The notes under the pieces are model-generated. The model ran no database searches, was not told the DNA's origin, and worked only from the letters and a program-made list of their open reading frames with translations. DNA of 64,000 bases from a virus, in IMG/VR virus record IMGVR_UViG_3300002138_000190, positions 51,880-115,879 of that record; one strand, given 5' to 3'. Position 1 is the stretch's first letter. Every line of letters begins with the position of its first letter. A program made the position numbers and the translations under genes. Of this stretch, positions 34,492-57,343 are shown piece after piece.

Positions 34492-35325
34492 GTGAAATTC
34501 ATAACAATAGTTGAAAATGTGCCATTTTATCAATGGCAAATAGAACTTTTAATACAATCCTTTAAAACATATAATTTACAGGATGATCTATATGTTTTTT
34601 TAATTGGTGAAAACAATAAAATGTTTTTTAAAAATATTGATCAGTTTGAAAATTTGTATTACATTAAAGAAAACTCTAAAAGATTTGGATTTAATTATTT
34701 TGATTTTTACGAATCAATTATTTATTTCAAACAAAATAATCCAGATGAAGATTTTTGCATAATTGATCCTGATTGTATTTTGAACAAAAATGATTTTTCT
34801 TTTTTCAACGATAAAAATATATTTTACCAAGCAGAAATCATTAAAAAAGATTATATAGACAAAGCTTTAGTAGGATTAATTCTTAAAACAGTACAACAAA
34901 TTTGTTCTGTTTTTTATTTTTCAAAAGATATTAGTATTGATTTCTTTAAAAAAAGTTTATACGCAACTGAAGAATTTATAATTGAAATTTTGAAAACCAA
35001 TGAAATAGATGTTGTTGCAAGTGATTACAATATTTTTAAATATGGATTATTATTAGTTGCAATTTTAGACGAAAAAACTATTTCCGCATCTTTTGATTCA
35101 GTAATTTTCCCACAAAACAATCATTCAGATGCCATTTTTCTTTCTTACAAACACAGCATTATGCCTTTTTTTAAAAAAAATGATTTCAAGTTTGATAGAA
35201 ATAACATTATAATTATGCATCCTGAAAGTCCATTTGAAAATTTAATGGAACTTCCTGATTTCCCCAATTGTATTCCATTGAAGAAAATTGCAATATCTTA
35301 TGAGAAAAAATTAGATGAAATATGA
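34492..35325 (+). CDS. GT-A glycosyltransferase-like protein
   Basis: 277 residues from GTG 34492; no strong Shine-Dalgarno. The start MKFITIVENVPFYQWQIELLIQSF is a first beta strand plus helix of a nucleotide-sugar fold. DEDFCIIDPDCIL near residue 90 supplies the DxD metal site. It contains KTISASFDSVIFPQNN near residue 200. It opens the carbohydrate island, and its end overlaps the UDP-galactopyranose mutase start by 11 nt. The acceptor and sugar are unknown. Confidence 0.6.
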   Translation: MKFITIVENVPFYQWQIELLIQSFKTYNLQDDLYVFLIGENNKMFFKNIDQFENLYYIKENSKRFGFNYFDFYESIIYFKQNNPDEDFCIIDPDCILNKNDFSFFNDKNIFYQAEIIKKDYIDKALVGLILKTVQQICSVFYFSKDISIDFFKKSLYATEEFIIEILKTNEIDVVASDYNIFKYGLLLVAILDEKTISASFDSVIFPQNNHSDAIFLSYKHSIMPFFKKNDFKFDRNNIIIMHPESPFENLMELPDFPNCIPLKKIAISYEKKLDEI

Positions 35326-36397
35326 TTATATTGTCTGTGGATCAGGATTAGTAGGTGCTGTCTTTGCAAGAAAAATGCATGATAATAAAAAAACTGTTTT
35401 AGTTATCGACAAAAGAAAACATGTTGCTGGCAACTGTTACACAGAGAAAATAAATGGAATTAATGTGCATAAGTATGGATGTCATATATTTCATACAAAT
35501 AAAGAAAATGTTTGGGATTTCTTAAACCAATTTTCAAAATTTAATAATTATAGGCACAAAGGCATTGTGAATTATAATGGTAAAATCTTTAGCTTTCCAT
35601 TAAACCTAATGACATTTTCACAATTGTGGAATGTTAAAACTCCTGATGAAGCTATTAAAAAAATAGAAACAGAAAAAATAAAAATTGAAAACCCAAAAAA
35701 CTTAGAGGAATGGTGTCTTGCAAATGTTGGAAAAGAAATATATAAAATTTTTATAAAAGAATATACAAGTAAACAATGGAACAAAAATCCAAAAGATTTG
35801 CCTATAAGCATAATAAAAAGAATTCCAATTAGATTTGACTTCAATGATGATTATTTCCATACATCAAATTATCAAGGCATACCAGAGAATGGATATACAA
35901 ATTTAATAAATAATATTCTAGATGGTATTAGAGTTGAATTAAATACTGATATTTTTAAAACTAATTGGAAAAGTTATGCTAATAAATTAATATATTGTGG
36001 TGCAATAGATCAATATTATGAATATTGCTTTGGAAAATTAGAATATAGAAGTCTGCGTTGGGAACACAAAGAAGTAAATGGAGATTTTCAAGGACATTCT
36101 GTTGTTAACTATACAGACAGTAAAACAAAATTTACTAGAATCATAGAACACAAACATTTTGATAAACTTAAATTTGATAAATCAATTGTAAGTTATGAAT
36201 TTCCTCAAGATTTTAAAGATAAAAATGAGCCATACTATCCAATAAATGACGAGAAGAATAATTTAATTTATTCAAAGTATAAGAAAATTCATAATCCAAA
36301 TGTTGTTTTTACAGGAAGATTAGGAATTTACAAGTACATTGACATGGATGATGCTGTTTCTTTAGCTTTTAAAAATGCAGAAAATGAGCTAACTTAA
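35315..36397 (+). CDS. glf: UDP-galactopyranose mutase
   Basis: 360 residues, the usual size (about 370). It is an FAD enzyme that interconverts UDP-galactopyranose and UDP-galactofuranose. The Rossmann GxGxxG lies at residues 9-14, followed by DKRKHVAGN (residues 32-40), the GCHIFHTN motif at about 55-62, FPLNLMTFSQLW at about 95, and the C-terminal GRLGIYKYIDMDDAV that contacts FAD. All core motifs are intact, so it is probably active. It provides the donor for galactofuranose-containing polysaccharides and is usually found in O-antigen or capsule clusters. Confidence 0.92.
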   Translation: MKYDYIVCGSGLVGAVFARKMHDNKKTVLVIDKRKHVAGNCYTEKINGINVHKYGCHIFHTNKENVWDFLNQFSKFNNYRHKGIVNYNGKIFSFPLNLMTFSQLWNVKTPDEAIKKIETEKIKIENPKNLEEWCLANVGKEIYKIFIKEYTSKQWNKNPKDLPISIIKRIPIRFDFNDDYFHTSNYQGIPENGYTNLINNILDGIRVELNTDIFKTNWKSYANKLIYCGAIDQYYEYCFGKLEYRSLRWEHKEVNGDFQGHSVVNYTDSKTKFTRIIEHKHFDKLKFDKSIVSYEFPQDFKDKNEPYYPINDEKNNLIYSKYKKIHNPNVVFTGRLGIYKYIDMDDAVSLAFKNAENELT

Positions 36398-44994: not shown

Positions 44995-46455
44995 ATGTTA
45001 CACTTAAATAAAGAAAATTACGATAATAAATTTTGTTTAGACACTTATGTCATAAGAGATAAAAATTGCATAGGTTATTGTTGTTCTAGCCCAGAAAAAT
45101 TAGAAGAAAAACTAAAAATTGCAGCATTTAGTAATTTTAAATATGTAGAATTATGGCACAAAGATGTTTTTAATTATATTAATAAATATGGTTGTGATAG
45201 TTTACTTAATTTATTAAATAAATTCAATTTAAAAGTTTCATCTTACAAAGTTTTAGAAAATTGGTTTGAAGGAAATTCTTCTTTAGAAGTTATAGAATAC
45301 GCAGCTAAAATAAAATCAAATAATTTAGTAGTTAAACTACTAAGTGATGCAAATGAAAACCCTATTGCTGAAATTGATTGGTATGTTGAAAGATATTTAG
45401 AATTAATTAAAATATGTGAAAAATACAAATTGTATCCTTGTTTAGAATTCATGTGTTTAGCTAAAACTATGAATAATATAGATTTTGTTTATGAAATACT
45501 TAAAAGAACAAATCATCCATATTGCTCATTAGTTTTAGATACTTGGCACTTATGGAGAAATGACAATGAAAATTTTGATAAATTTGAAAAAACATTATTT
45601 AATTTAAATAAAACATGGGTCAAAATTATACATTTTACAGATGCAAGAAAAGATATACCTAGAGAAATACAAAAAGATGGCGATAGAAAAATGCCTAATG
45701 AAGGCCTATTAAATTTAACAAAGTTTTGCAATTTGTTAAAATCAAAAGACATTAAAACAACTTATTCTTTAAATGTTTATGACCAAAATTTATGGAATCA
45801 AAACTTATATGAAGTTGCAAAAAAATCATTTGAATGTTTTGGTAAATATTTTGACATTAATGCTAAAAGTTTAGCTGATTCTAAATCTTGGGAAAATAAA
45901 CAAGATGAAAGATGTAATGGGTTATGGGAAAATAGTTACAAAACACATTTAGATCCTAGATTTTCTAATAGTGATAGAGATATACAACTAGAAAATATAT
46001 TAAAAGACTATTTGCAGGATAAAAAAGTTTTAGATTTCAAATGTGGATTCTCACCTTTGGCAAAATATGTAACATATGGTTTTGATGCTTATAAAAAATG
46101 CATAGATTATTTAAAAATTAATTTTAAAAATTCTTTTTGGTGGTGCATGTCCGATAATCAATTTGGTAATTTTTTCAACGAAAAAATAGATGTTTTGCTG
46201 CATATTGGATTAGGTGATTCTAATACTGAATTAGTAAATCATTTGAAAATTAGAAATAACTGCAAACCTTCAGTTGTAATAATTGAATGTGCTGCAAATG
46301 AAGACAAAACTGTAAATGAATCAAAAGAAGGAAATACAAGAAATTGGGAAGTTTTAATTAAAGATTTAGTTGAAAGAAAAGAATTTTTCATAAAAACAAA
46401 TATGAATGATAGAAGTTACAGACTATTAGTAATAGGCAAGTGCAATAATGCTTAA
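44995..46455 (+). CDS. Fusion: xylose-isomerase-like TIM barrel plus methyltransferase-like domain
   Basis: 486 residues. The first 290 form an AP-endonuclease-2/xylose-isomerase-like barrel: FKYVELWHKDVF, PCLEFMC (metal-binding Glu), SLVLDTWHLWR (Asp, His), and VKIIHFTDARKDIPREIQ (His, Asp). From about 300 a different domain starts: SKSWENKQDERCNGLWENSYKTHLDPR, DKKVLDFKCGFSPLAKYVTYGFDAYKKC (degenerate SAM-motif I region) and PSVVIIECAANED. This looks like a class I methyltransferase fold with a weakened glycine motif. It is divergent from the PglD-like gene. Confidence 0.62.
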   Translation: MLHLNKENYDNKFCLDTYVIRDKNCIGYCCSSPEKLEEKLKIAAFSNFKYVELWHKDVFNYINKYGCDSLLNLLNKFNLKVSSYKVLENWFEGNSSLEVIEYAAKIKSNNLVVKLLSDANENPIAEIDWYVERYLELIKICEKYKLYPCLEFMCLAKTMNNIDFVYEILKRTNHPYCSLVLDTWHLWRNDNENFDKFEKTLFNLNKTWVKIIHFTDARKDIPREIQKDGDRKMPNEGLLNLTKFCNLLKSKDIKTTYSLNVYDQNLWNQNLYEVAKKSFECFGKYFDINAKSLADSKSWENKQDERCNGLWENSYKTHLDPRFSNSDRDIQLENILKDYLQDKKVLDFKCGFSPLAKYVTYGFDAYKKCIDYLKINFKNSFWWCMSDNQFGNFFNEKIDVLLHIGLGDSNTELVNHLKIRNNCKPSVVIIECAANEDKTVNESKEGNTRNWEVLIKDLVERKEFFIKTNMNDRSYRLLVIGKCNNA

Positions 46456-46747: not shown

Positions 46748-47777
46748 AAGATGGAAAGATAATCATGCTGAACCATTATTGAGAAGCGTAAATTTTTTGT
46801 CTAATTTTGATATAAATTTAATACCAGTATTTTGTCCATCTAACAAAGGAACTCCTGAATTATTATGGCCTGATTGTGATGATACAGAAAGAAGAAGCGA
46901 AATAGATGAACTGTTTGATTCTTTGATCTTTCCCGATGCAGTTATAGTTCACCATCGTTGTCTTTCACCTAAAATGTTAAGATCTAAAATACCTTTAATA
47001 ATTTTAGAACATACAGATGGAACTTCTTTAGAAATATCAAGAAATTTCATAAATTTAGATAATGTAATTGGTGTAATCAAAGGTAGTGTTTTTACAAACT
47101 ATGATTTTTATAATGCAAGTTTAACTGAAGGTATGTATCATTCAAATTACATGAATTTAATTGGTTTGCCAAAATCAAAAGTAAAACAAATAAGTTCTAT
47201 TTTTTTAAGTAAAATAGAACTTGGTTATTCTTTTGGATGTTTCCCATCTAATAAAAGATTTTTAAATTATCAGTTAGATAAGTCAAAAGATATATTGGTA
47301 TCTTTTATTGGAAATATAAATTACCATAGGAGTAAACTTGTTACTGCACATAGAAATTTAGCTTTTAATAAAATAAAAAATTTAAATGGTAGTTATTATT
47401 CATTAGGTGGAATGCATCAAAATGAATATGATGATATATTATTAAGAAGTAAATTTTGTTTATCTCCATATGGGTATGGTGTTTGCTATAGAAGTTTTGA
47501 ATCGATATACACAGAATGTATTACTATTCAGCCAGACTCAAATTTTTTAAAAACATGGCCCAATATATTTGTCGAAAATATTGGTTATTTGAAATGTAAA
47601 TCTGATTTTTCAGATTTAGATGAATTGTGTAATATTTCAAATACTAAATATGAGGAACTATTGATTGAAACAAAAAATTTAAAGCAAGAATTAATAAACA
47701 GTTATTGGAAAGAAGAAATTATTGGAAATCATTTGAAAAATATAATTGTAAATTGTATTTCTAGAATAAAGAATTAA
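46719..47777 (+). CDS. Exostosin-like glycosyltransferase (GT47 type)
   Basis: 352 residues from ATG 46719 (a neighbouring ATG at 46722 and TTG at 46713 are alternatives). KDILVSFIGNINYHRSKLVTAHRNL near residue 195 and LGGMHQNEYDDILLRSKFCLSPYGYGVCYRSFESIYTECITIQPD near 230-275 match exostosin/GT47 proteins: the [FL]-x-L-x-P-x-G-x-x-x-x-[SR]-x-R-x-x-E/D core. The N-terminal half is the acceptor Rossmann domain. Its TAA shares two bases with the convergent gene's TAA. Confidence 0.78.
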   Translation: MMKLYFLCHERWKDNHAEPLLRSVNFLSNFDINLIPVFCPSNKGTPELLWPDCDDTERRSEIDELFDSLIFPDAVIVHHRCLSPKMLRSKIPLIILEHTDGTSLEISRNFINLDNVIGVIKGSVFTNYDFYNASLTEGMYHSNYMNLIGLPKSKVKQISSIFLSKIELGYSFGCFPSNKRFLNYQLDKSKDILVSFIGNINYHRSKLVTAHRNLAFNKIKNLNGSYYSLGGMHQNEYDDILLRSKFCLSPYGYGVCYRSFESIYTECITIQPDSNFLKTWPNIFVENIGYLKCKSDFSDLDELCNISNTKYEELLIETKNLKQELINSYWKEEIIGNHLKNIIVNCISRIKN

Positions 47778-48430
47778 TTTTTAACAATTGCAACTATCTT
47801 GCCTGATTGATACTTCTTGTTTGCAATATTAATAATTTCATTTGCTATTTCAATTACAGAAGTTTGTCCTTTTTCTTCGCCTATGCCACCAAAACTAATA
47901 ACATTGGCAAATATTAAAAGATTTTTTAATTCATTTGCCAAATGAAATGCATATTCATTTAACCCTGCTTTTGCGGATGCATAAACACCTACTTGTCCTA
48001 AATCTCTAGTATTTGATATTACAGAACTACTAGTGAAAATTATATTACTGTTTTTATTCATTAGTGGTATTACATGTTTCATCAATAAGACATTTATTAA
48101 AAAGTTAGTTTCTACAATCCATTTTACATCTTCATGTTTCATTTTAAAACAGCTATCAAGTTGTAAAGGAAGACTGTCAAATCCTTTGTTGCCACCTATA
48201 CAAGAAACAAATAAATCAATTTTTTTATTTTTAAAAAAATCATTTTTGAAAAAATTTTCAATGTTTTCTTTTTTAGAAAAATCACAACACTCGAAATCAT
48301 TATTGTTTTTCTTTCTTTTAAATGTATGTTTTAAAATATTGAAATTATTATTTTTTAGTTTTTCACATATTGCTGTTCCAACAAATGAACTTGCTCCAAC
48401 AACTAAAGCATTATTTTTAGTTTGAATCAT
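47774..48430 (-). CDS. Short-chain dehydrogenase/reductase
   Basis: 218 residues. VVGASSFVGTAIC at about 10-22 is the NAD(P) site (in place of TGxxxGIG). DLFVSCIGGN matches the NNAG position. NIIFTSSSVIS carries the catalytic Ser, and VGVYASAKAGLNEYAFHLANEL the Tyr-x-x-x-Lys. It has all catalytic residues but a shortened C-terminus. It likely reduces or epimerises a keto-sugar or acyl intermediate. The N-terminus overlaps the radical SAM stop. Confidence 0.78.
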   Translation of the reverse strand: MIQTKNNALVVGASSFVGTAICEKLKNNNFNILKHTFKRKKNNNDFECCDFSKKENIENFFKNDFFKNKKIDLFVSCIGGNKGFDSLPLQLDSCFKMKHEDVKWIVETNFLINVLLMKHVIPLMNKNSNIIFTSSSVISNTRDLGQVGVYASAKAGLNEYAFHLANELKNLLIFANVISFGGIGEEKGQTSVIEIANEIINIANKKYQSGKIVAIVKN

Positions 48431-49286
48431 ATTCTTGTATGTTTTTCTTTTTTCTTATAATTTTTAAATTTTCAACGGAAACAAATGATTTATCAGATAT
48501 TTTTTGATCTTTAATTATATGTGGATCATTTGAAAAACCAGCAGCACACCTGTAACAAAAATTCTCTGCTTGTTTAGCTATCTCTTCATTTGTTTTATCA
48601 AATGGATTTTTGCCATCTTCAATTTTCCAACCATTATCTTCTCCTGATATTTGATCAAAAGCAGGAGCAACTTCACAAATATAAGCTTTGTCATTGTAAA
48701 TAGTGACTCCACATTTATTCCAACAAACACAATGTTTTTTAGCTTGATTCCAATAATATTTTTTATTTTTTATTTTTAACACATCAATAGGGGCTACTAA
48801 TGTTGGATTAAACATTTTCATTGGAATATCATCTTTTCCATAATGTTCTTTGAAATCAATTAAGAATGTAACATTGTTTTTATCAGGAATCCAAGCACCA
48901 ACTCTATTTTCTTTTCTTTCAACTTCACATTTGGAAATGTCATGTAGTCTTCCATTAGAAAAAATAATAAAATTGTAATCTTCATATGAGTAAAGTATTT
49001 CTTTTATTTCATTAAATTTTGGATGTAATGTTGGTTCCCCTCCAAATATCCAAATTTTCTTGCTAATATATTTACCCATTGTTTCAATGTTTGTTTTTAA
49101 TTGGTCTAAATCAATAAACCAAAGTTGTTCTTTTTCAAAGTGACCACAAAGTTGGCTGCATCCACCACAATGCAAATTACAAACATTTGTTATGGTAATG
49201 TATGGAGGTCTTTTTTTAAACATTAAATTATCAGGGCCATCTATTTGTTCGTAAGTAATATTTCTTTTTATGATATGGTTAAGCAT
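48417..49286 (-). CDS. Radical SAM enzyme with SPASM/twitch-like C-terminal Cys
   Basis: 289 residues. NVCNLHCGGCSQLC near residue 35 contains the canonical CxxxCxxC cluster. KKIWIFGGEPTLHPKF follows (SAM-binding GGEP). HCVCWNKCGVTIYNDKAYICEVAP at about 190 and NFCYRCAAGF near 245 add further Cys that could bind an auxiliary FeS cluster. It likely performs radical chemistry on a sugar or nucleotide-sugar, or another small substrate. It is next to the MOSC gene (8-nt overlap) and a DegT 3-dehydratase-like gene, which suggests a shared pathway. Confidence 0.82.
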   Translation of the reverse strand: MLNHIIKRNITYEQIDGPDNLMFKKRPPYITITNVCNLHCGGCSQLCGHFEKEQLWFIDLDQLKTNIETMGKYISKKIWIFGGEPTLHPKFNEIKEILYSYEDYNFIIFSNGRLHDISKCEVERKENRVGAWIPDKNNVTFLIDFKEHYGKDDIPMKMFNPTLVAPIDVLKIKNKKYYWNQAKKHCVCWNKCGVTIYNDKAYICEVAPAFDQISGEDNGWKIEDGKNPFDKTNEEIAKQAENFCYRCAAGFSNDPHIIKDQKISDKSFVSVENLKIIRKKKNIQEYDSN

Positions 49287-49815
49287 TTAATACCTTTTTT
49301 ATTGTGTCGTTTATTTTTACAAATCCGCTTTCGATAACTTCTGCTCTAATCCCGCCATTTAATAATAAAACATCTATTAAACCTTTGCATTTTGTATATT
49401 CTTCTATATGTTTGCATCCTTTGCAAAATTCAACTCCTTTAAGTAAAACATCATTTATCTTGAAATATCTATTCATCAGAGAATTTAAGTTTAAATTTTC
49501 GGTTAAAATATTTCTCCTTAAATCTATTGGTTCAAGATTAGGGAATTTTTTTTTAATTTCTTTAATGTTTTGAGCATCTATCAAAGAAATGTTTCTTGGG
49601 TTTTTAAATTTAACTAAGTTATTATCTTGTAATTTAAAATGAGAAACATCATACCACCTATCTCCAACAATTCCTTTGTTCTTATGTATTTCAACTGAAT
49701 TCATGGCAATCATTGGATTGGCATAGTTATAGCCACCAGCTGGTGGTGTGTTTGTATCTTCAATAGGCTTAGATATGAAAATACTTAGCACTTTTATTTT
49801 TTGTATTAACAACAT
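49279..49815 (-). CDS. MOSC domain protein
   Basis: 178 residues. EIHKNKGIVGDRWYDVSHFKL near residue 45 and NPRNISLIDAQNIKEI, LRRNILTENLNLNSLM, then LLKGVEFCKGCKHIEEY with the Cys, and GGIRAEVIESGFVKINDTI at the end are the MOSC family core. MOSC proteins carry sulfur or molybdenum-cofactor chemistry; the Cys in VEFCKGC is the likely carrier. Phage MOSC genes are rare. It is tightly coupled with the radical SAM gene and the DegT gene, so it may deliver sulfur or a cofactor to one of them. That is inference. Confidence 0.8.
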   Translation of the reverse strand: MLLIQKIKVLSIFISKPIEDTNTPPAGGYNYANPMIAMNSVEIHKNKGIVGDRWYDVSHFKLQDNNLVKFKNPRNISLIDAQNIKEIKKKFPNLEPIDLRRNILTENLNLNSLMNRYFKINDVLLKGVEFCKGCKHIEEYTKCKGLIDVLLLNGGIRAEVIESGFVKINDTIKKVLNA

Positions 49816-50990
49816 TAATTTATATCTATGTAATTTTTAATTTTACTTGAAACATACTCCATATCTTTCAAGTTTAATCCATGCCAACATCCAACAAATA
49901 AACTATTCTTCATAAGAAAATCAGCTATTGGTAAATTTTGATACAAGTGTTTAAATGGTTTGTGTCTGGTAATATTACCAGCAAAAAAAGGTCTGCTTTT
50001 GATATTGTTTTTCAACAAGTACAAAGCTAAATCATTACGATTTCCATCTTGCAAAGTTACTACATACCCATAATAGGCAGGATTAGAATCATCAAGAACT
50101 TTCATTTTTGTTGTTGGATAATTACTCAATGAATTTTGAAGATAATTAAAATTTTCAATTCTTTTTTTTGTAAATCCTTTTAATCTATTCATTTGAACAC
50201 ATGCATAAGCTGCTGCTGTGTCTGGCATAAGCATATTCCATCCACAAGTTTCATATGTAAATTGTTCGTCATAAGCTATATTATCAATAAAACAAGAATA
50301 ATTTGTAATTTTTTCAATGTTTTTTTCTGTTTCTAAAGTAGATATTTTCCCCCATGTTTTCATTGATCTTATTTTGTAAATTAATTCTTCATCATCTGTA
50401 ATAACAGCACCCCCCATGCCCATTCCATTAATTTGATGAGAAGGATAAAAAGAAAATGTGCCTAATTTTCCATAAGTTCCAACATGTTTTTTTTTGTAAA
50501 ATGATCCTAAAGACTCACAGCAATCTTCAATTATATGAATGTTATATTTATCACAAATTTCTTTTATCGGAATAATATCAACAGGATTGCCTAAAGTATG
50601 TGCGAAAATTATAGCTTTTACATTATCTTTTTCTTTTTTAACAGCATCAATTACTTGATTTATATCAATGTTGTAAGATGGTAACTCATAATCTACTAAA
50701 ACAGGTTGTAATCCTAAATGTAAAATTGGATTTAGAGTAGCTGGAAAACCACATCCAGAAGTAATAACTTTAGAATTTTTCGGTAAATTCAAACTAGCTA
50801 AAGCTAATAAATTTGCTGACGAACCTGAATTAACACAAGTACAAAATTTAGAACCTGTAAAATCACAAATTAATCTTTCTAATTTCTTGTTTTCTTTTCC
50901 TGATGTGTGCCACTTACTGATTAAAACTTTAATAACAGCTAAATATTCTTGAATTCCATGTTTTATTCCACCAAAAGATATAGGTTTCAT
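49815..50990 (-). CDS. DegT-family sugar 3-dehydratase-like enzyme (His in place of PLP Lys)
   Basis: 391 residues. DegT/DnrJ/EryC1 layout: VNSGSSANLLALASLNLP near residue 52, CGFPATLNPILHLGLQPVLVD near 80, ANI-type FAHTLGNPVD and IIEDCCESLG near 140. The PLP-site segment reads GTFSFYPSHQINGMGMGG. In aminotransferases this has Lys (for example S-F-x-x-x-K); here a His takes that place. A His there is known from E1 (RfbH, CDP-4-keto-6-deoxyglucose 3-dehydrase) and ColD, which use PMP for 3-deoxygenation. So a 3-dehydratase role is likely. The ATG overlaps the upstream stop. Confidence 0.8.
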   Translation of the reverse strand: MKPISFGGIKHGIQEYLAVIKVLISKWHTSGKENKKLERLICDFTGSKFCTCVNSGSSANLLALASLNLPKNSKVITSGCGFPATLNPILHLGLQPVLVDYELPSYNIDINQVIDAVKKEKDNVKAIIFAHTLGNPVDIIPIKEICDKYNIHIIEDCCESLGSFYKKKHVGTYGKLGTFSFYPSHQINGMGMGGAVITDDEELIYKIRSMKTWGKISTLETEKNIEKITNYSCFIDNIAYDEQFTYETCGWNMLMPDTAAAYACVQMNRLKGFTKKRIENFNYLQNSLSNYPTTKMKVLDDSNPAYYGYVVTLQDGNRNDLALYLLKNNIKSRPFFAGNITRHKPFKHLYQNLPIADFLMKNSLFVGCWHGLNLKDMEYVSSKIKNYIDIN

Positions 50991-51808
50991 AATTTCTTTC
51001 TTTGATTGTAATAGTGTTCTCTAATTTCTTTTTCACTTACATAAGGCACATTCTTAATAGAATGATGAATTAGAAATTTTTCATCAATTAATCTTGGGTC
51101 TAATGGTTTTTTTCTGCCATGATGAGATGAATATAACGGTGGAACCAAATTATCAGGATACTCACCCCAATAAAAATTTTCAAAACCCATAAGTTTAACA
51201 CAATTAGTTAAAAAAGATTCTGATGGGAATGGATAGTTTTCATGCTTTGTATCTAACAAGCCATTTTCAAAAGCTTTATCAATAAAACTTCTACTTTGGA
51301 AATTAACTGCATAAAATATTTGTCTTTCTGGAAAAACAAAATCATTTATATTTGGAAAATATGGATTGAAGTGGTTCTTTATTTTTTCTATCATCCAGTC
51401 TTTAGAATAAATTGCATCATCTTTGCTTCCTATGCAACCTATGTTTTTGTTGTGAGTGAAAATATTTAAAGCCCATACATCTAATCCTTTTCCGTTAATT
51501 GGCAATGCATCATCATCAATAACCATCACCATTTTAAAATTATATTTTTTATTTAAAGCATAAGTAATTCCATCATTTACTTTTTGACTTATATTTCTAT
51601 TTTCTTTTTTCAAAATTGCTTTAGTGTGTACTATTTCAACATTTTGAATGTTTAAATTTTTTATTTTTTTACTATCATCTACAACAATCATTTTTACTTT
51701 AGATTTGCAACTCCAAAAAATTGCATCAATTTGATCCAATACAATGTCTTCGCCTCTATGTGTAGGCATTATAACCAATGTGTCAAATTCACTAATTTGC
51801 TTGAGCAT
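50987..51808 (-). CDS. Glycosyltransferase family 2-like
   Basis: 273 residues. FDTLVIMPTHRGEDIVLDQIDAIF opens the GT-A fold, and FKMVMVIDDDALPINGKGLDVWALNIF near residue 92 provides the metal-binding DDD. SKVKMIVVDDSKKI is the second strand. The C-terminal half has PPLYSSHHGRKKP and HHSIKNVPYVSEKE. It is coupled to the DegT-like gene. The donor and acceptor are unknown. Confidence 0.68.
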   Translation of the reverse strand: MLKQISEFDTLVIMPTHRGEDIVLDQIDAIFWSCKSKVKMIVVDDSKKIKNLNIQNVEIVHTKAILKKENRNISQKVNDGITYALNKKYNFKMVMVIDDDALPINGKGLDVWALNIFTHNKNIGCIGSKDDAIYSKDWMIEKIKNHFNPYFPNINDFVFPERQIFYAVNFQSRSFIDKAFENGLLDTKHENYPFPSESFLTNCVKLMGFENFYWGEYPDNLVPPLYSSHHGRKKPLDPRLIDEKFLIHHSIKNVPYVSEKEIREHYYNQRKKL

Positions 51809-51863
51809 TTTATGTTGTTATTTAGTGTAATTTATTTGTAAATTTTTAAAATTAAAAACTAAT

Positions 51864-52748
51864 TTAATTTTTCCATAAGTCACTTAAAAGCCATTTTGAA
51901 TTAATTTTTTGTTTATCTATTTCTAATGGATTGAATGCTATATTAAGCTTTTCAAATTGTAATTCATAAAAAGATTTTGGAAGAGTAGTTAAAAGGTTTT
52001 TGTACAAAGTTAATTCTTTTAATTTTTTCAAGTTGCCAAAATTTTCTGGTAACTTCTTTAGTTTGTTTTTGTGAATTCTCAAACCTTCTAAATTTTGCAA
52101 ATTACAAAAACTATCAGGTAAATTTTCTATTTTATTTGCTACTAAAGAAAGCCATTTTAATTTTTTTAAATTTTCTATTTCTTCAGATATCATTGTGATG
52201 CCAGATAATCCCCAAGAAAAAAATTCTAAATTTTTAAGCTTATAGATAAAATTTGGAATTTTTCTTATTTTATTCAAATAAAGATTTAAAAATTCTAAGT
52301 TGCTTAAAACAGATATACTGTCTATATTTTTTAATTCATTTTTGTGAAGTTTCAAGGTTTTTAATTTTAGTAAATTACAGATTGAATCAGGTAATTCTTT
52401 TAAATCATTAACTCCAAGGTTTAAAAATTCTAAGTTTAAATTAAGTACTGTTTCAGGTATTTTTTTTAAATAATTAGATCCTAAATCTAAATGTTTTAAA
52501 TTTTTTAAATTTAAATTATGCAAGTCACAAATTCTATTTTTTCTTAAATTCAATATTTCTAAATTTTCTAAATTTGAAATATTTTTAATTATTTTATTTT
52601 TTTCACTAGGAATTAAATTTCTTATTGTTCCATGAAAAATAAATTCTTTATTTGTAAAATCAATTTTAATGCATTTATCTTCGTGGAATTCATAGTTGAA
52701 AAAAGGTGTTATTTTTTTTATATTTGCAATAACATCATGATCTTTCAT
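51864..52748 (-). CDS. Leucine-rich repeat protein
   Basis: 294 residues with nine or so LRR units of 21-24 residues from about residue 55 to 270 (for example LEILNLRKNRICDL, LKHLDLGSNYLKKIPE, LKTLKLHKNELKNI, LEGLRIHKNKLKKLPE). The pattern LxxLxLxxNxLxxLP is that of typical bacterial LRR proteins. It has no signal peptide or membrane helix and begins with a short cap (1-45) that includes NYEFHEDKCIKIDF. LRR proteins bind proteins. In a phage a role in blocking or recruiting host factors, or in binding an enzyme of this island, is possible. Its ATG overlaps the TauD-like gene end by 14 nt. Confidence 0.88.
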   Translation of the reverse strand: MKDHDVIANIKKITPFFNYEFHEDKCIKIDFTNKEFIFHGTIRNLIPSEKNKIIKNISNLENLEILNLRKNRICDLHNLNLKNLKHLDLGSNYLKKIPETVLNLNLEFLNLGVNDLKELPDSICNLLKLKTLKLHKNELKNIDSISVLSNLEFLNLYLNKIRKIPNFIYKLKNLEFFSWGLSGITMISEEIENLKKLKWLSLVANKIENLPDSFCNLQNLEGLRIHKNKLKKLPENFGNLKKLKELTLYKNLLTTLPKSFYELQFEKLNIAFNPLEIDKQKINSKWLLSDLWKN

Positions 52749-53457
52749 GTATTCCCCCTTTTATCAACCATCTTTCTCCAATAAAGGAATTTCTTCCATG
52801 TAGAACTTTATTGTCTTTGAAAAAAAGTGCATCCCCATTGTTAAGTATAACTGAATCCACTAATCCTGAAGCAATAATTTTTTCTTCTAAAAAATTATGA
52901 AATTCATTAGTTGTTTTATTTTTTTCACAACGATAATAATTCCAATTTAAAAAATTGTTTTCATCTACAATAAAACTTTTTTTGCAATCACTACCTTTGA
53001 AGAAATTAATAATATTGCTTTTTAAATCTTTTAGTAATTTTTCATCGTAATATTTAAGTACTTCAATTAAAAAATCATTTTCAATAAAAGTAGTGGCCCC
53101 ACCATATTTAGCTTTTTGCGAACAACCAAAAAATGTAATTGTGGGTGCGTTAAATTCATATGAACCATCAGTATGAAGAGGTTGTCTTGTATTGCTGTGG
53201 CTATAACTTGAACTTGTAAAATTTACTGGGTGTTTAATATTTGTGAAAAAATTACCATTTTTATTTCCTGTTTGTAAATCTTCTTCCATTAAGGCCAGAT
53301 CACCAATTTTTTGAGCTAAATTTTCATAGTACTCAAAGTTAATATTGTTTGATTCGTTAACACAATGAATAACTTTGAATTTTTTCAATAACTCAATTAA
53401 TTCTTTGTGAATATCTTTTTTGCCATCAAACACAATCTTCCAAATGTATTTTTTCAT
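52735..53457 (-). CDS. TauD/TfdA-like Fe(II)/2-oxoglutarate dioxygenase
   Basis: 240 residues from ATG 53457 (an earlier in-frame ATG at 53496 lengthens the overlap with the flavodoxin gene). RQPLHTDGSYEFNAPTITFFGCSQKAKYGGATTF near residue 90 carries the H-x-D iron ligands and the GGAT/T motif of the family. The second His is in VLHGRNSFIGERWLIKGGI near the end, with the Arg for 2-oxoglutarate. It is a second oxygenase in the island. It could hydroxylate the same precursor or a modified amino acid. The end overlaps the LRR gene. Confidence 0.82.
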   Translation of the reverse strand: MKKYIWKIVFDGKKDIHKELIELLKKFKVIHCVNESNNINFEYYENLAQKIGDLALMEEDLQTGNKNGNFFTNIKHPVNFTSSSYSHSNTRQPLHTDGSYEFNAPTITFFGCSQKAKYGGATTFIENDFLIEVLKYYDEKLLKDLKSNIINFFKGSDCKKSFIVDENNFLNWNYYRCEKNKTTNEFHNFLEEKIIASGLVDSVILNNGDALFFKDNKVLHGRNSFIGERWLIKGGIHERS

Positions 53458-53839
53458 ATAATTTACTTTTCCATTTTTCAAAACAATTCCAATCAATTTT
53501 TGGTATTGAATCTAATGATAACATGTAATAAAATTCTTCAAAACCTAATTCTTCAAAATATTTTTTCAAAATAATACCAGCACCAAAAGTAAAATCTTCA
53601 TATCCATAATAGTTTCCTAATTCGCAAATTGTAAAATACTTAAGGTTGTTTATTTTAATGTTAAGTAAATAATCTTCCATTTCTAATGGTAATTCTTCAT
53701 CACCATAAGTAGGACATAAAATTATTAAAAGATCACAATCAATAATTGGATTTACTTTTATATTTAATGCGTTTTCAAAATAATTCGCAACTAAAGTTGT
53801 TTTGTTTTTAACTGAGCAATAGATAATTTGAATTTTCAT
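53426..53839 (-). CDS. Flavodoxin-like protein
   Basis: 137 residues. YCSVKNKTTLVANYF at 7-21 is the phosphate-binding loop region. LLIILCPTYGDEELPLEMEDYL follows near residue 37, and FTICELGNYYGYEDFTFGAGIILKKYFEEL near 70 is the typical FMN-binding loop with Gly-Asn-Tyr. The length fits short flavodoxins and NrdI. It could deliver electrons to the radical SAM enzyme. It overlaps the TauD-like gene. Confidence 0.78.
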   Translation of the reverse strand: MKIQIIYCSVKNKTTLVANYFENALNIKVNPIIDCDLLIILCPTYGDEELPLEMEDYLLNIKINNLKYFTICELGNYYGYEDFTFGAGIILKKYFEELGFEEFYYMLSLDSIPKIDWNCFEKWKSKLYEKIHLEDCV

Positions 53840-54444
53840 TTAATTATATTATTCAATATGGAAAATTTTTCACCTTTAAATTCTGGCATAAAATTTAATT
53901 CTATTTTATTATCACTAAATTTATTCTTGCAATATAAATCTGTACCCCCAAATGAATTCAAATAATAAGTTGCATTAAATAATTTACACAATTCTAATAT
54001 TCTATCTTGCCCATGTAAATTAGATGAATAATCACTTGCATAATAAAATTCTTTATTTATTCCTAATGTTTTGCATGTCCAAATTATAGAAGTACATAGC
54101 ATATCAGACAAATTATAATATTTTTTAAAAGATAAATAGAAATCTTTAAATATATTGTTTTTACTTTTACCATAAACATGAAGAAATGTTTTTAAGTGTT
54201 TGTCAACCCATGTATTATCATATATTTCAATTTTATTAATGGTAGTTTCTCTTGGTGCATTTTTAACTGGAACTGTTATAAAAATATTATCTTTTTTATT
54301 TGGGGATGGAATAATATTTCTATTGATCCATCTTCTTTTTACATACTGGACATCGTTAAGAAATATAAATTTGTCTGCTGAAGCGATTAAATCAAAATAA
54401 CCTTGATATGGGAAAAAATAAGGCTGCATTATTGCTATCTTCAT
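53836..54444 (-). CDS. WbqC-like protein
   Basis: 202 residues. MKIAIMQPYFFPYQGYFDLIASADKFIFLNDVQYVKRRWINRN is the family's conserved N-terminus. YLNSFGGTDLY near residue 160 is the conserved C-terminal glycine motif. WbqC proteins occur in O-antigen and capsule clusters next to DegT aminotransferases and were proposed to act on amino-sugar intermediates, but their biochemistry is not settled. Here it overlaps the half-length DegT gene by 4 nt. Confidence 0.88.
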   Translation of the reverse strand: MKIAIMQPYFFPYQGYFDLIASADKFIFLNDVQYVKRRWINRNIIPSPNKKDNIFITVPVKNAPRETTINKIEIYDNTWVDKHLKTFLHVYGKSKNNIFKDFYLSFKKYYNLSDMLCTSIIWTCKTLGINKEFYYASDYSSNLHGQDRILELCKLFNATYYLNSFGGTDLYCKNKFSDNKIELNFMPEFKGEKFSILNNIIK

Positions 54445-55031
54445 TTAAACACCGAAAACTTAGACAAATCAGGATATTTGCCCTTACAAACTTTACCTTC
54501 CCCTAAATGAAGCATAAGATTTAAACCTCTTGCTGCTTGTTCAGGTGTCATATACATGTTCCAACCTAAAATTGTAACATCAGTTTGTTCTGCCAAAGGA
54601 ACATTTATTCTTCCACAATACCTAGCTAGTTTAAACCAATCATTGGCTTTTTCATTGTCAGTTAGTATCATGCCACCTTTCCCAATATTAATTGGTTTGT
54701 TTGCACTAAAAGAAACACAAGTATATGTTTCTCGTTCATACATGTTTCTCTTTAAACAACAAGCACTATCAATAATTGGATAAGGGTCTAATGAATAATT
54801 TTCTGTCCATTCATTATCATTAAATTTTATTTTTCCACCGCTATGAATTACAGCAGAAGGAATTGAAATATAAGTTTTTTTAGGAATAGTTATTTCATTT
54901 ACTTTTAAATATTTGCAACATAGAAAAATAGCGTTAGTGCAGTTGTCAACAGCTATTGCATGTTTTGCACCAGTATAAGATGCAATTTTCTTTTCAAATT
55001 CTTCAACAATTGAATAAGGATTTGGTTCCAT
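54441..55031 (-). CDS. Half-length DegT-family aminotransferase
   Basis: 196 residues, about half a usual DegT (370-400). It keeps the large-domain elements: SIVEEFEKKIASYTGAKHAIAVDNCTNAIFLCC at the start, the cofactor strand PYPIIDSACC, and CVSFSANKPINIGKGGMILTDN with a standard PLP Lys (SANK). It ends soon after MYMTPEQAARGLNLML, so the C-terminal small domain is missing. The stop codon and overlaps with neighbours are clean, so it is not an obvious frameshift. It may be a compact enzyme or a subunit that needs a partner. Confidence 0.78.
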   Translation of the reverse strand: MEPNPYSIVEEFEKKIASYTGAKHAIAVDNCTNAIFLCCKYLKVNEITIPKKTYISIPSAVIHSGGKIKFNDNEWTENYSLDPYPIIDSACCLKRNMYERETYTCVSFSANKPINIGKGGMILTDNEKANDWFKLARYCGRINVPLAEQTDVTILGWNMYMTPEQAARGLNLMLHLGEGKVCKGKYPDLSKFSVFK

Positions 55032-55880
55032 TTAATTACTTCCATTTTTAAAATTCAAATTTTTGACAAACAAATTTATATAATTATCTAAATTAATTCT
55101 CGGCTTCCAATTTAACTTTTCATAAGTTTCTTCCATATTAATATTTGCAACATCAATATCATGTTTTGATTTTGGAAGATAAATAATTCTGTTTGCTTTA
55201 AACAAGCTTGATATTTTTTTTATTGAATACTTTTTGGATTCGCCAAAATTAAAAATTTCAAAATTAAAATCTTTTTTCATTAATTTAAAAATGCCTTCAC
55301 AAACATCATTTATGTGAATGAAATGTTTTTTATTTTTACCATCACCATATATTTCAAATGGTAAATTGTTTTCTTTATTGTTTTCAAAAATTCCAACTAA
55401 GTTAGCAGCATTTCCAGTTTTTTTTTGACCAATCCCATAAATGTTAAATAGTCGTAAAATATTAATTTTAAGTCCATAATATTGATTGTAATAAATACAC
55501 AATTCTTCACCTAAATATTTACTGAATGTGTAAGGGTTTAAAAAATAATTACCATGACATGTATAGGAACTTGCAAAAATAACTTTTGCTTTTTTTTCCA
55601 AAGCATACTCTAAAACATTTTTAGTTCCTTTGATATTTACTTCAAAAGTTTTATCAGTATTACTTAGGCATGTCTTTATCCTTGATATTGCAGCAAAATG
55701 TATGATTGTTTTTGGATTAAGGGTTTCAAGTTTTTTGTTCAATAAAAAATTTTTTGTAATATCATGTTTTATTGTTGAATTTTCCAAGTCTAAATCAACA
55801 AAATTAATTTTTTTTTCTTTTAAAAAATTAATTAAATTTGTTCCAATAAATCCTGAAGAACCAGTTATTAAAATGCACAT
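55032..55880 (-). CDS. NAD-dependent sugar epimerase/dehydratase
   Basis: 282 residues. TGSSGFIGTNLI at 6-17 is the extended-SDR NAD site. VKGT-type NIKGTKNVLEYALEKKAKVIFASS and YTFSKYLGEEL near residue 117 carry the catalytic Tyr-x-x-x-Lys. LRLFNIYGIGQ and GDGKNKKHFIHINDVCEGIFKLM are the substrate-side motifs of GalE/RfbB-like enzymes. It probably changes a nucleotide-sugar at C4 or makes a 4-keto sugar. It overlaps the GT9/methyltransferase gene start by 13 nt. Confidence 0.88.
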   Translation of the reverse strand: MCILITGSSGFIGTNLINFLKEKKINFVDLDLENSTIKHDITKNFLLNKKLETLNPKTIIHFAAISRIKTCLSNTDKTFEVNIKGTKNVLEYALEKKAKVIFASSYTCHGNYFLNPYTFSKYLGEELCIYYNQYYGLKINILRLFNIYGIGQKKTGNAANLVGIFENNKENNLPFEIYGDGKNKKHFIHINDVCEGIFKLMKKDFNFEIFNFGESKKYSIKKISSLFKANRIIYLPKSKHDIDVANINMEETYEKLNWKPRINLDNYINLFVKNLNFKNGSN

Positions 55881-57343
55881 TTATTAATGTTTTGTCCAAA
55901 AGCAAAAATTTTATTTTCTTTTATTTTTTTACAAACAAAAGTTTTTACACCTTGTCTGCCACATTTATTTTCTTGCTCAGAAGTTTCAACAATCTTAAAC
56001 CCATTTTGTTCCATGTACCAATCAAAAGATTCATTTGTCCAATAATAAATATGTTCATTCTTTTTGAAATGTTTACTCAAAGAAAGTCTTATGAAATTAT
56101 CGTAAATTGGAAGAGTTACAATAACAAATTGATTTTTTTTAATTTTGGACAAGAAATAACAAGGATTTACCATGTGCTCCAAAGCATCCCACATAGTAAT
56201 TACATCTATTTTTGAAATATCATCGTAATAAGGATTTAAAAAGTTACCTTTATCTTTAAGCCACTTAATTCCATGTGGATTTATATCAAACCCAAAAATA
56301 TTTTTTTTAACTTTATCAATAAACTCACCAGAGCCAATTCCAATATCTAAAACATTACCATCTTTTGTATATTTTTTTGTTAAGTCACATCTAAATTTAT
56401 TTAATTTTTTTGAAATATTAGTGTTTCTTAAATTTACAAAATTTTGAAAATAATCATGTTCATAAGGTATTAATGTATCTAAGTTAATTTGAAATATAAT
56501 ATCATTGGCAAAAGAATGAGCAAAATCTTGATTGTAAAAAATTGCTGCCTTTGTTCCAATAAAGTTGCAATGTCTATAAGGAATTATTGAATTAACTATA
56601 AAATCAAATTCCTTTTGAGCAGTATAATAATATTTCTTGCTAAACATTAAATGAGGACTTAAAGATTTAATTAATAATTTATCTTGTGGGAATAATTGAC
56701 TAGCTAAAACAGATAAGAAAGAATCAATCCCAATGTAACCATTTGCTTTTTTAATAATTTCAATTGATTCTTCTAATGATGTCTTACTCATTAAATTAAC
56801 AATTCTTGAATTAATGGGTATTACATAATCATCTTCATGTACTCCTAAAACAACAGCATATTGGTCTGTTTGCGATAAGAATAATTCAATGTTTCTCCAC
56901 TCAACATTATCAATATCCTTTCTCCCATTCTTACCTCTGGTTACTGTTGTTGGAGCAATTACAATAAACTTTTCTGGCAATTCTTGTTTGATATCCGTAA
57001 TTTTATTCTTTATGAAACTTGATATTCTAAAAGATGGCAAAGTTTTATTGCCAAACACAGTAAAAATACTATGATCAACAATTTTTTCCCAATTTTTTGG
57101 TTTGGTTGTTAACAAAGCTCCTAAGTGTTCTTTAGTTTCAATATAAGGTACTTTGCTCCAATCATCGTAAATAACTTCTACTTCAATATCTTTCCAATAA
57201 GGTAAAAGGTTAAACAAATAAATTAAATCTTTTTTTCTTGGAGTTGCAAGATAAATCTTCTTAATTTGCTTTAGTTGTTTTTCAGGTATAAAGCTTTCAA
57301 TGGCGATGAAATCACCAATTGCACCAGTAATTAATATTTCCAT
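55868..57343 (-). CDS. Fusion: GT9-like glycosyltransferase plus SAM methyltransferase
   Basis: 491 residues. The first 260 resemble ADP-heptose/GT9 enzymes: ILITGAIGDFIAIESFIP at 3-20, FIVIAPTTVTRGKNGRKD near 126, and NGYIGIDSFLSVLASQLFP near 200. A linker leads to a class I methyltransferase from about 330: NVLDIGIGSGEFIDKV (SAM motif I), FGFDINPHGIKWL, VITMWDALEHMVNPCYFLSKI and FVIVTLPIYDNF. Such bifunctional proteins are unusual in phages. It could glycosylate and methylate the same product. The start codon is a plain ATG at 57343 with no strong ribosome site. Confidence 0.78.
   Translation of the reverse strand: MEILITGAIGDFIAIESFIPEKQLKQIKKIYLATPRKKDLIYLFNLLPYWKDIEVEVIYDDWSKVPYIETKEHLGALLTTKPKNWEKIVDHSIFTVFGNKTLPSFRISSFIKNKITDIKQELPEKFIVIAPTTVTRGKNGRKDIDNVEWRNIELFLSQTDQYAVVLGVHEDDYVIPINSRIVNLMSKTSLEESIEIIKKANGYIGIDSFLSVLASQLFPQDKLLIKSLSPHLMFSKKYYYTAQKEFDFIVNSIIPYRHCNFIGTKAAIFYNQDFAHSFANDIIFQINLDTLIPYEHDYFQNFVNLRNTNISKKLNKFRCDLTKKYTKDGNVLDIGIGSGEFIDKVKKNIFGFDINPHGIKWLKDKGNFLNPYYDDISKIDVITMWDALEHMVNPCYFLSKIKKNQFVIVTLPIYDNFIRLSLSKHFKKNEHIYYWTNESFDWYMEQNGFKIVETSEQENKCGRQGVKTFVCKKIKENKIFAFGQNINKCAF

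Follow-up and report, generated by a model that had tools for sequence, protein, structure and literature searches.

Clusters of polysaccharide genes are an established feature of jumbo phages (PMC7824862); their presumed role is to re-coat the host as protection from rival phages. In the large T4-like Synechococcus phages P-SSM2 and S-B05 they form a long block of epimerases, glycosyltransferases and methyltransferases, which in S-B05 also carries a DegT protein, and RfbH-type DegT genes were already known from cyanophages. Radical SAM cassettes have been described for the variable, glycosyltransferase-rich host-recognition region of pelagimyophages, with no mention of MOSC (PMC7029224).

We analyzed a stretch of viral DNA of 64,000 nucleotides, termed the window (positions 51880–115879 of a virus record of 115,879 bp). 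It contains a comparable block of sugar genes and resembles the pelagimyophage region by description. The published overview of phage polysaccharide clusters mentions no radical SAM, MOSC or DegT protein, whereas all three are encoded in the window, which moreover differs from that overview by its sulfotransferase and leucine-rich-repeat (LRR) genes. Our best reading is a phage polysaccharide island of known kind with two unusual passengers, a Twitch dehydrogenase-like enzyme and a MOSC protein. The joint explanation, comprising the glycan island, a Twitch-type oxidase, a ColD-like DegT protein and the MOSC passenger, is put forward tentatively, its chances as a whole falling just short of even.

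Setting and layout of the gene island

A major head protein, a portal protein and baseplate wedge proteins, all of T4 type, are encoded on the source contig. The major head protein shares 75% identity with one from LR756511.1, the 595-kb genome of an uncultured phage; the contig is therefore probably a fragment of a large T4-like phage. Just left of the window (contig positions 49160–50197) lies a gene for an actin-like protein with a match to Pfam Volactin (4e-60). This family takes its name from an archaeal actin; here the match comes from a phage contig.

Twelve genes of the window form a minus-strand run (47774–57343; Table 1). Left of this run lie UDP-galactopyranose mutase, RmlD-like, two GT2-like and sulfotransferase-like genes, together with PhyH, hexapeptide transferase, TIM barrel and GT47-like genes. 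With several glycosyltransferases and NDP-sugar epimerases in a large phage, the locus shows the features by which jumbo-phage polysaccharide clusters are recognized, and the run is best read as the minus-strand portion of a wider island for glycan biosynthesis (about 34–57 kb). Such an island would probably make or remodel a host surface polysaccharide, or a virion glycan. Three members may be noted in addition: a xylose-isomerase-like TIM barrel is fused to an apparently methyltransferase-like C-terminal part, the LRR protein within the glycan gene run resembles phrog_6688 (function not known), and the second DegT-family protein, with 196 aa, keeps the PLP lysine region and lacks the C-terminal half. 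PDB matches to PRDM9 zinc fingers were set aside as Cys-rich chance matches.

Table 1 Features of the minus-strand run, in run order, and two features to its left
Feature	Position	Strand	Supporting match or remark
GT9-like plus methyltransferase protein	55868–57343	-	PF13489, PF01075
NAD-dependent epimerase	55032–55880	-	PF01370 1e-38
Second DegT-family protein, C-terminally truncated	54441–55031	-	PF01041 5.5e-24
WbqC-like protein	53836–54444	-	PF08889 5e-48
Flavodoxin-like protein, degenerate phosphate loop	53426–53839	-	phrog_883 (flavodoxin) 3e-6; PF00258 20 bits, under cut-off
TauD-family Fe(II)/2-oxoglutarate dioxygenase (from ATG start)	52735–53457	-	PF02668 4.6e-11
Leucine-rich-repeat protein	51864–52748	-	PF23598 4.5e-21
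GT2-like glycosyltransferase, weak match	50987–51808	-	PF00535 9e-4
DegT-family protein, RfbH/E1-like, His185	49815–50990	-	PF01041 269 bits
Stand-alone MOSC-domain protein	49279–49815	-	PF03473 24.5 bits, cut-off 22.7
Radical SAM protein, Twitch-type C-terminal domain	48417–49286	-	PF04055 37 bits, 4e-9, above cut-off
SDR (short-chain dehydrogenase/reductase)	47774–48430	-	PF00106 4e-15; 14-bp overlap with radical SAM gene
TIM barrel with C-terminal fusion	44995–46455		
UDP-galactopyranose mutase	35315–36397	+	PF03275 1e-67

A preliminary description of this DNA had joined four of the twelve co-directional genes, encoding the radical SAM, MOSC, DegT and flavodoxin-like proteins, into one pathway. 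Its observations on the layout were borne out: the four genes are present on one shared strand, the overlap measures 8 bp between radical SAM and MOSC and 1 bp between MOSC and DegT, and the flavodoxin-like gene lies upstream, 2.4 kb from the DegT gene. The sugar setting was likewise supported, as glycosyltransferases, epimerases, WbqC, UDP-galactopyranose mutase and a sulfotransferase surround the trio. Overlap is, however, the local norm (17 of 21 same-strand neighbor pairs in the sugar-gene region, 24 of 43 across the window) and thus does not single out radical SAM, MOSC and DegT as a trio. The case shows that overlapping genes in a dense phage island do not define a pathway.

The DegT and MOSC proteins

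The DegT protein scores 324 bits against NCBIfam RfbH, below the cut-off of 423, and its closest solved sequence is E1 (PDB 3bcx/3bb8). The earlier assignment to the His type holds: His185 stands where PLP aminotransferases have Lys and aligns with E1 His220, which replaces the PLP lysine, a replacement common to RfbH/E1 and ColD. In contrast to E1, the window protein misses three of the four Fe-S ligands. Only the first Cys of the E1/RfbH [2Fe-2S] motif C-x57-C-x-C-x7-C remains and the equivalents of E1 C251, C253 and C261 are absent; in the same alignment the motif is intact in Salmonella RfbH and in the phage homologues L005, L006 and L021_a. E1-like electron transfer is therefore unlikely in this protein, and the argument that its type calls for a reductase falls away. 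ColD works without such an Fe-S cluster, and the window protein may be a ColD-like, His-type PMP/PLP enzyme of this sort. A 4,6-dehydratase forming its substrate was not recognized among the proteins scanned; the nearby epimerase reads ASSYTCHG, without the Asp/Glu of 4,6-dehydratases, and judged from this sequence would not be one. The closest phage match of the DegT protein (H1, from a 2.6-kb Salmonella phage clone) was taken to be a bacterial rfbH carried over.

The MOSC protein aligns with its family at the invariant Cys (C134) and the RRNxxT motif, and its best NCBIfam match is MoaC/MOSC. It shares the invariant Cys and the MOSC core with stand-alone MOSC proteins, of which YiiM is the characterized relative, and differs in being phage-borne and in sequence, its identity to MOSC proteins with an annotation being about 30%. 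A single-sequence structure model (pLDDT 40) was unusable, and a PDB profile search returned no relative. Characterized MOSC members are Moco-dependent reducers of N-hydroxylated compounds (PMC5818509), which argues against the proposed role as sulfur carrier in a thio-sugar route; the window protein is probably a separate, Moco-dependent passenger.

It is quite possible that the MOSC and DegT genes were inserted recently, came from a host and have no functional tie to their neighbors, a view compatible with the joint explanation. It is favored by the likeness of MOSC to ordinary cellular MOSC proteins and by the scans of phages, PHROGs and viral contigs, where no MOSC relative was found, although these pattern scans are narrow, their absences are not proof, and three cellular MOSC proteins likewise match no PHROG. 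Both frames are intact, on the other hand, and overlap their neighbors, so that they are likely translated along with these.

The radical SAM protein and its family

The radical SAM protein carries the motifs of its superfamily, the core cluster motif CxxxCxxC (C36/C40/C43) and the GGE motif (G82-G83-E84), as well as four auxiliary cysteines (C186/C204/C244/C247; C-x17-C-x39-C-x2-C in the window protein), all of them invariant in ten of ten sequences, the window protein and its relatives. In the AF2 model (pLDDT 79, pTM 0.81) C186 lies before the hairpin 194–202, C204 after it, and C244 and C247 at the end of the helix 233–246. This placement agrees with the described Twitch anatomy of one Cys ahead of a hairpin, one past it and a Cys pair after the second helix (PMC6231123), the binding of a cluster here being a prediction.

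Among PDB entries, Foldseek gave an E value below 0.001 for SpeY alone (7wzx, 7x0b, 7wzv), a named Twitch radical SAM dehydrogenase in which a radical SAM core is likewise followed by a Twitch domain. Although SpeY is the closest fold match, the resemblance is moderate (TM 0.42–0.48, rmsd about 6–7 Å, 15% identity), and the substrate of the window protein is one that we infer. In BtrN, also a Twitch dehydrogenase, the second electron is believed to pass to an auxiliary cluster with full Cys ligation (PMC9012708). Based on the Twitch cysteine arrangement, the SpeY fold match and this role of the BtrN cluster, the most likely assignment of the modeled protein is a Twitch-type oxidase, bearing in mind the warning that function within SPASM/Twitch enzymes is hard to predict (PMC6231123). 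It would probably oxidize a small molecule, perhaps a sugar.

The genes, motifs, fold match and family distribution are the data on which a possible reaction can be built; its direction, its substrates, the donor of the electron and any enzyme coupling are proposals. SAM cleavage at the C36/C40/C43 cluster would yield a 5'-deoxyadenosyl radical abstracting hydrogen from a substrate C-H, the C186/C204/C244/C247 cluster would take up the second electron, and an alcohol, e.g. a sugar hydroxyl, would be oxidized to a ketone. This ketone could in turn be reduced by the neighboring SDR, for instance with inversion of a center. The electron might come from the flavodoxin-like protein or from a host flavodoxin; the former also falls under the NCBIfam cut-offs, and its phosphate loop reads SVKNKT as compared to T/S-x-T-G-x-T in the FMN loop of flavodoxins.

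Motif and profile scans yielded nine close relatives with about 35–47% identity, spread over seven contigs, six of them viral and one from a Neisseriaceae MAG, with only the motif search opening the family. When 84,980 species genomes were scanned by pattern, distant relatives came up and no further close one. Scanning viral contigs with the radical SAM or MOSC protein as single query gave no match, and neither did a two-sequence profile or a degenerate C-terminal motif. The family is little known and mostly found in phages. Its tree is largely without resolution and vertical descent is not claimed; the MAG protein and the one from L041, a viral contig, form a pair. Around the radical SAM gene of the MAG contig (L115:1768–18170), related small proteins bearing HRKKGPA-type repeats are strung together in a long tandem array.

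Glycan-type neighbors were observed in four of the seven other contigs. L036, L037 and L039 encode glycosyltransferases, sulfotransferases, methyltransferases or PhyH together with UDP-galactopyranose mutase near the radical SAM gene, so that a homologue of the mutase accompanies three of the relatives, and in L038 sugar epimerase-type and sulfotransferase-like genes, as judged by sequence, stand beside it. The neighbors in L040, L041 and L115 are not glycan genes and comprise metal-dependent hydrolase, RNA-ligase, amidoligase or repeat-protein genes. The link of the family to sugars is thus suggestive without being general, and a substrate other than a sugar is conceivable. A family whose substrate is a peptide, protein, nucleotide or another non-sugar, and which only sometimes resides among glycan genes, would also fit the three paralogues, two of them in tandem, within one 48.6-kb viral contig (L036:5498–11574). 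We consider this unlikely, yet a serious contender: the glycan-type neighbors in the window and the four contigs speak against it, as do the fold match to a Twitch dehydrogenase and two distant cellular relatives (L116, L117) that are GT2/radical-SAM fusions.

A more far-reaching version of the sugar reading, that large phages own a family of Twitch radical SAM dehydrogenases oxidizing sugar hydroxyls of surface or virion glycans and that the phage-borne MOSC here acts on the same glycan, e.g. on an N-oxygenated amino sugar, appears rather improbable. A radical SAM family found mainly in large phages, and partly in polysaccharide clusters, would bring radical chemistry into the phage arms race; the enzyme is small enough for an assay.

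Co-occurrence of the four genes

The pathway put forward in the preliminary description was a deoxy- or thio-sugar route in which flavodoxin reduces an E1-type dehydratase as well as the radical SAM enzyme, and sulfur is supplied by MOSC. Gene order and overlaps, the His-type DegT and the flavodoxin gene upstream are in its favor. The distribution of the genes points the other way: MOSC was found in none of the seven other records with radical SAM relatives (six viral, one MAG genome) and DegT in none of the six viral ones, which is the very separation of radical SAM from DegT that had been named beforehand as refuting the pathway, and neither occurs within the 20-kb neighborhoods of the relatives. 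Conversely, LR756502.1 has two DegT genes without a radical SAM gene of the window type, and no DegT or radical SAM gene lies within 3 kb of the MOSC relatives on five plasmids or within 1.5 kb of eleven genome matches to MOSC. The virus record with the window is a fragment, so that genes missing from it prove little. Taken together with the lost Fe-S cysteines of DegT, the N-reductase chemistry of MOSC enzymes, the lack of a recognized 4,6-dehydratase among the scanned proteins and the commonness of overlaps in this region, the distribution of the genes makes a single four-gene pathway very improbable.

Just as improbable is a molybdenum-cofactor pair, in which the radical SAM enzyme would be MoaA-like and MOSC would use the cofactor, e.g. 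to reduce N-hydroxylated nucleobases: MoaA, too, belongs to the Twitch enzymes and is the second-best NCBIfam match of the radical SAM protein, and MoaC/MOSC is the best match of its partner, but the MoaA score of 30 bits is far under the cut-off of 284, the relatives occur without MOSC, and the protein ends in IQEYDSN, without the C-terminal Gly-Gly that is a feature of MoaA. The identification as MoaA was thus rejected on score, C-terminus and auxiliary cysteine count, the four invariant auxiliary cysteines contrasting with three ligating ones in MoaA (PMC9012708).
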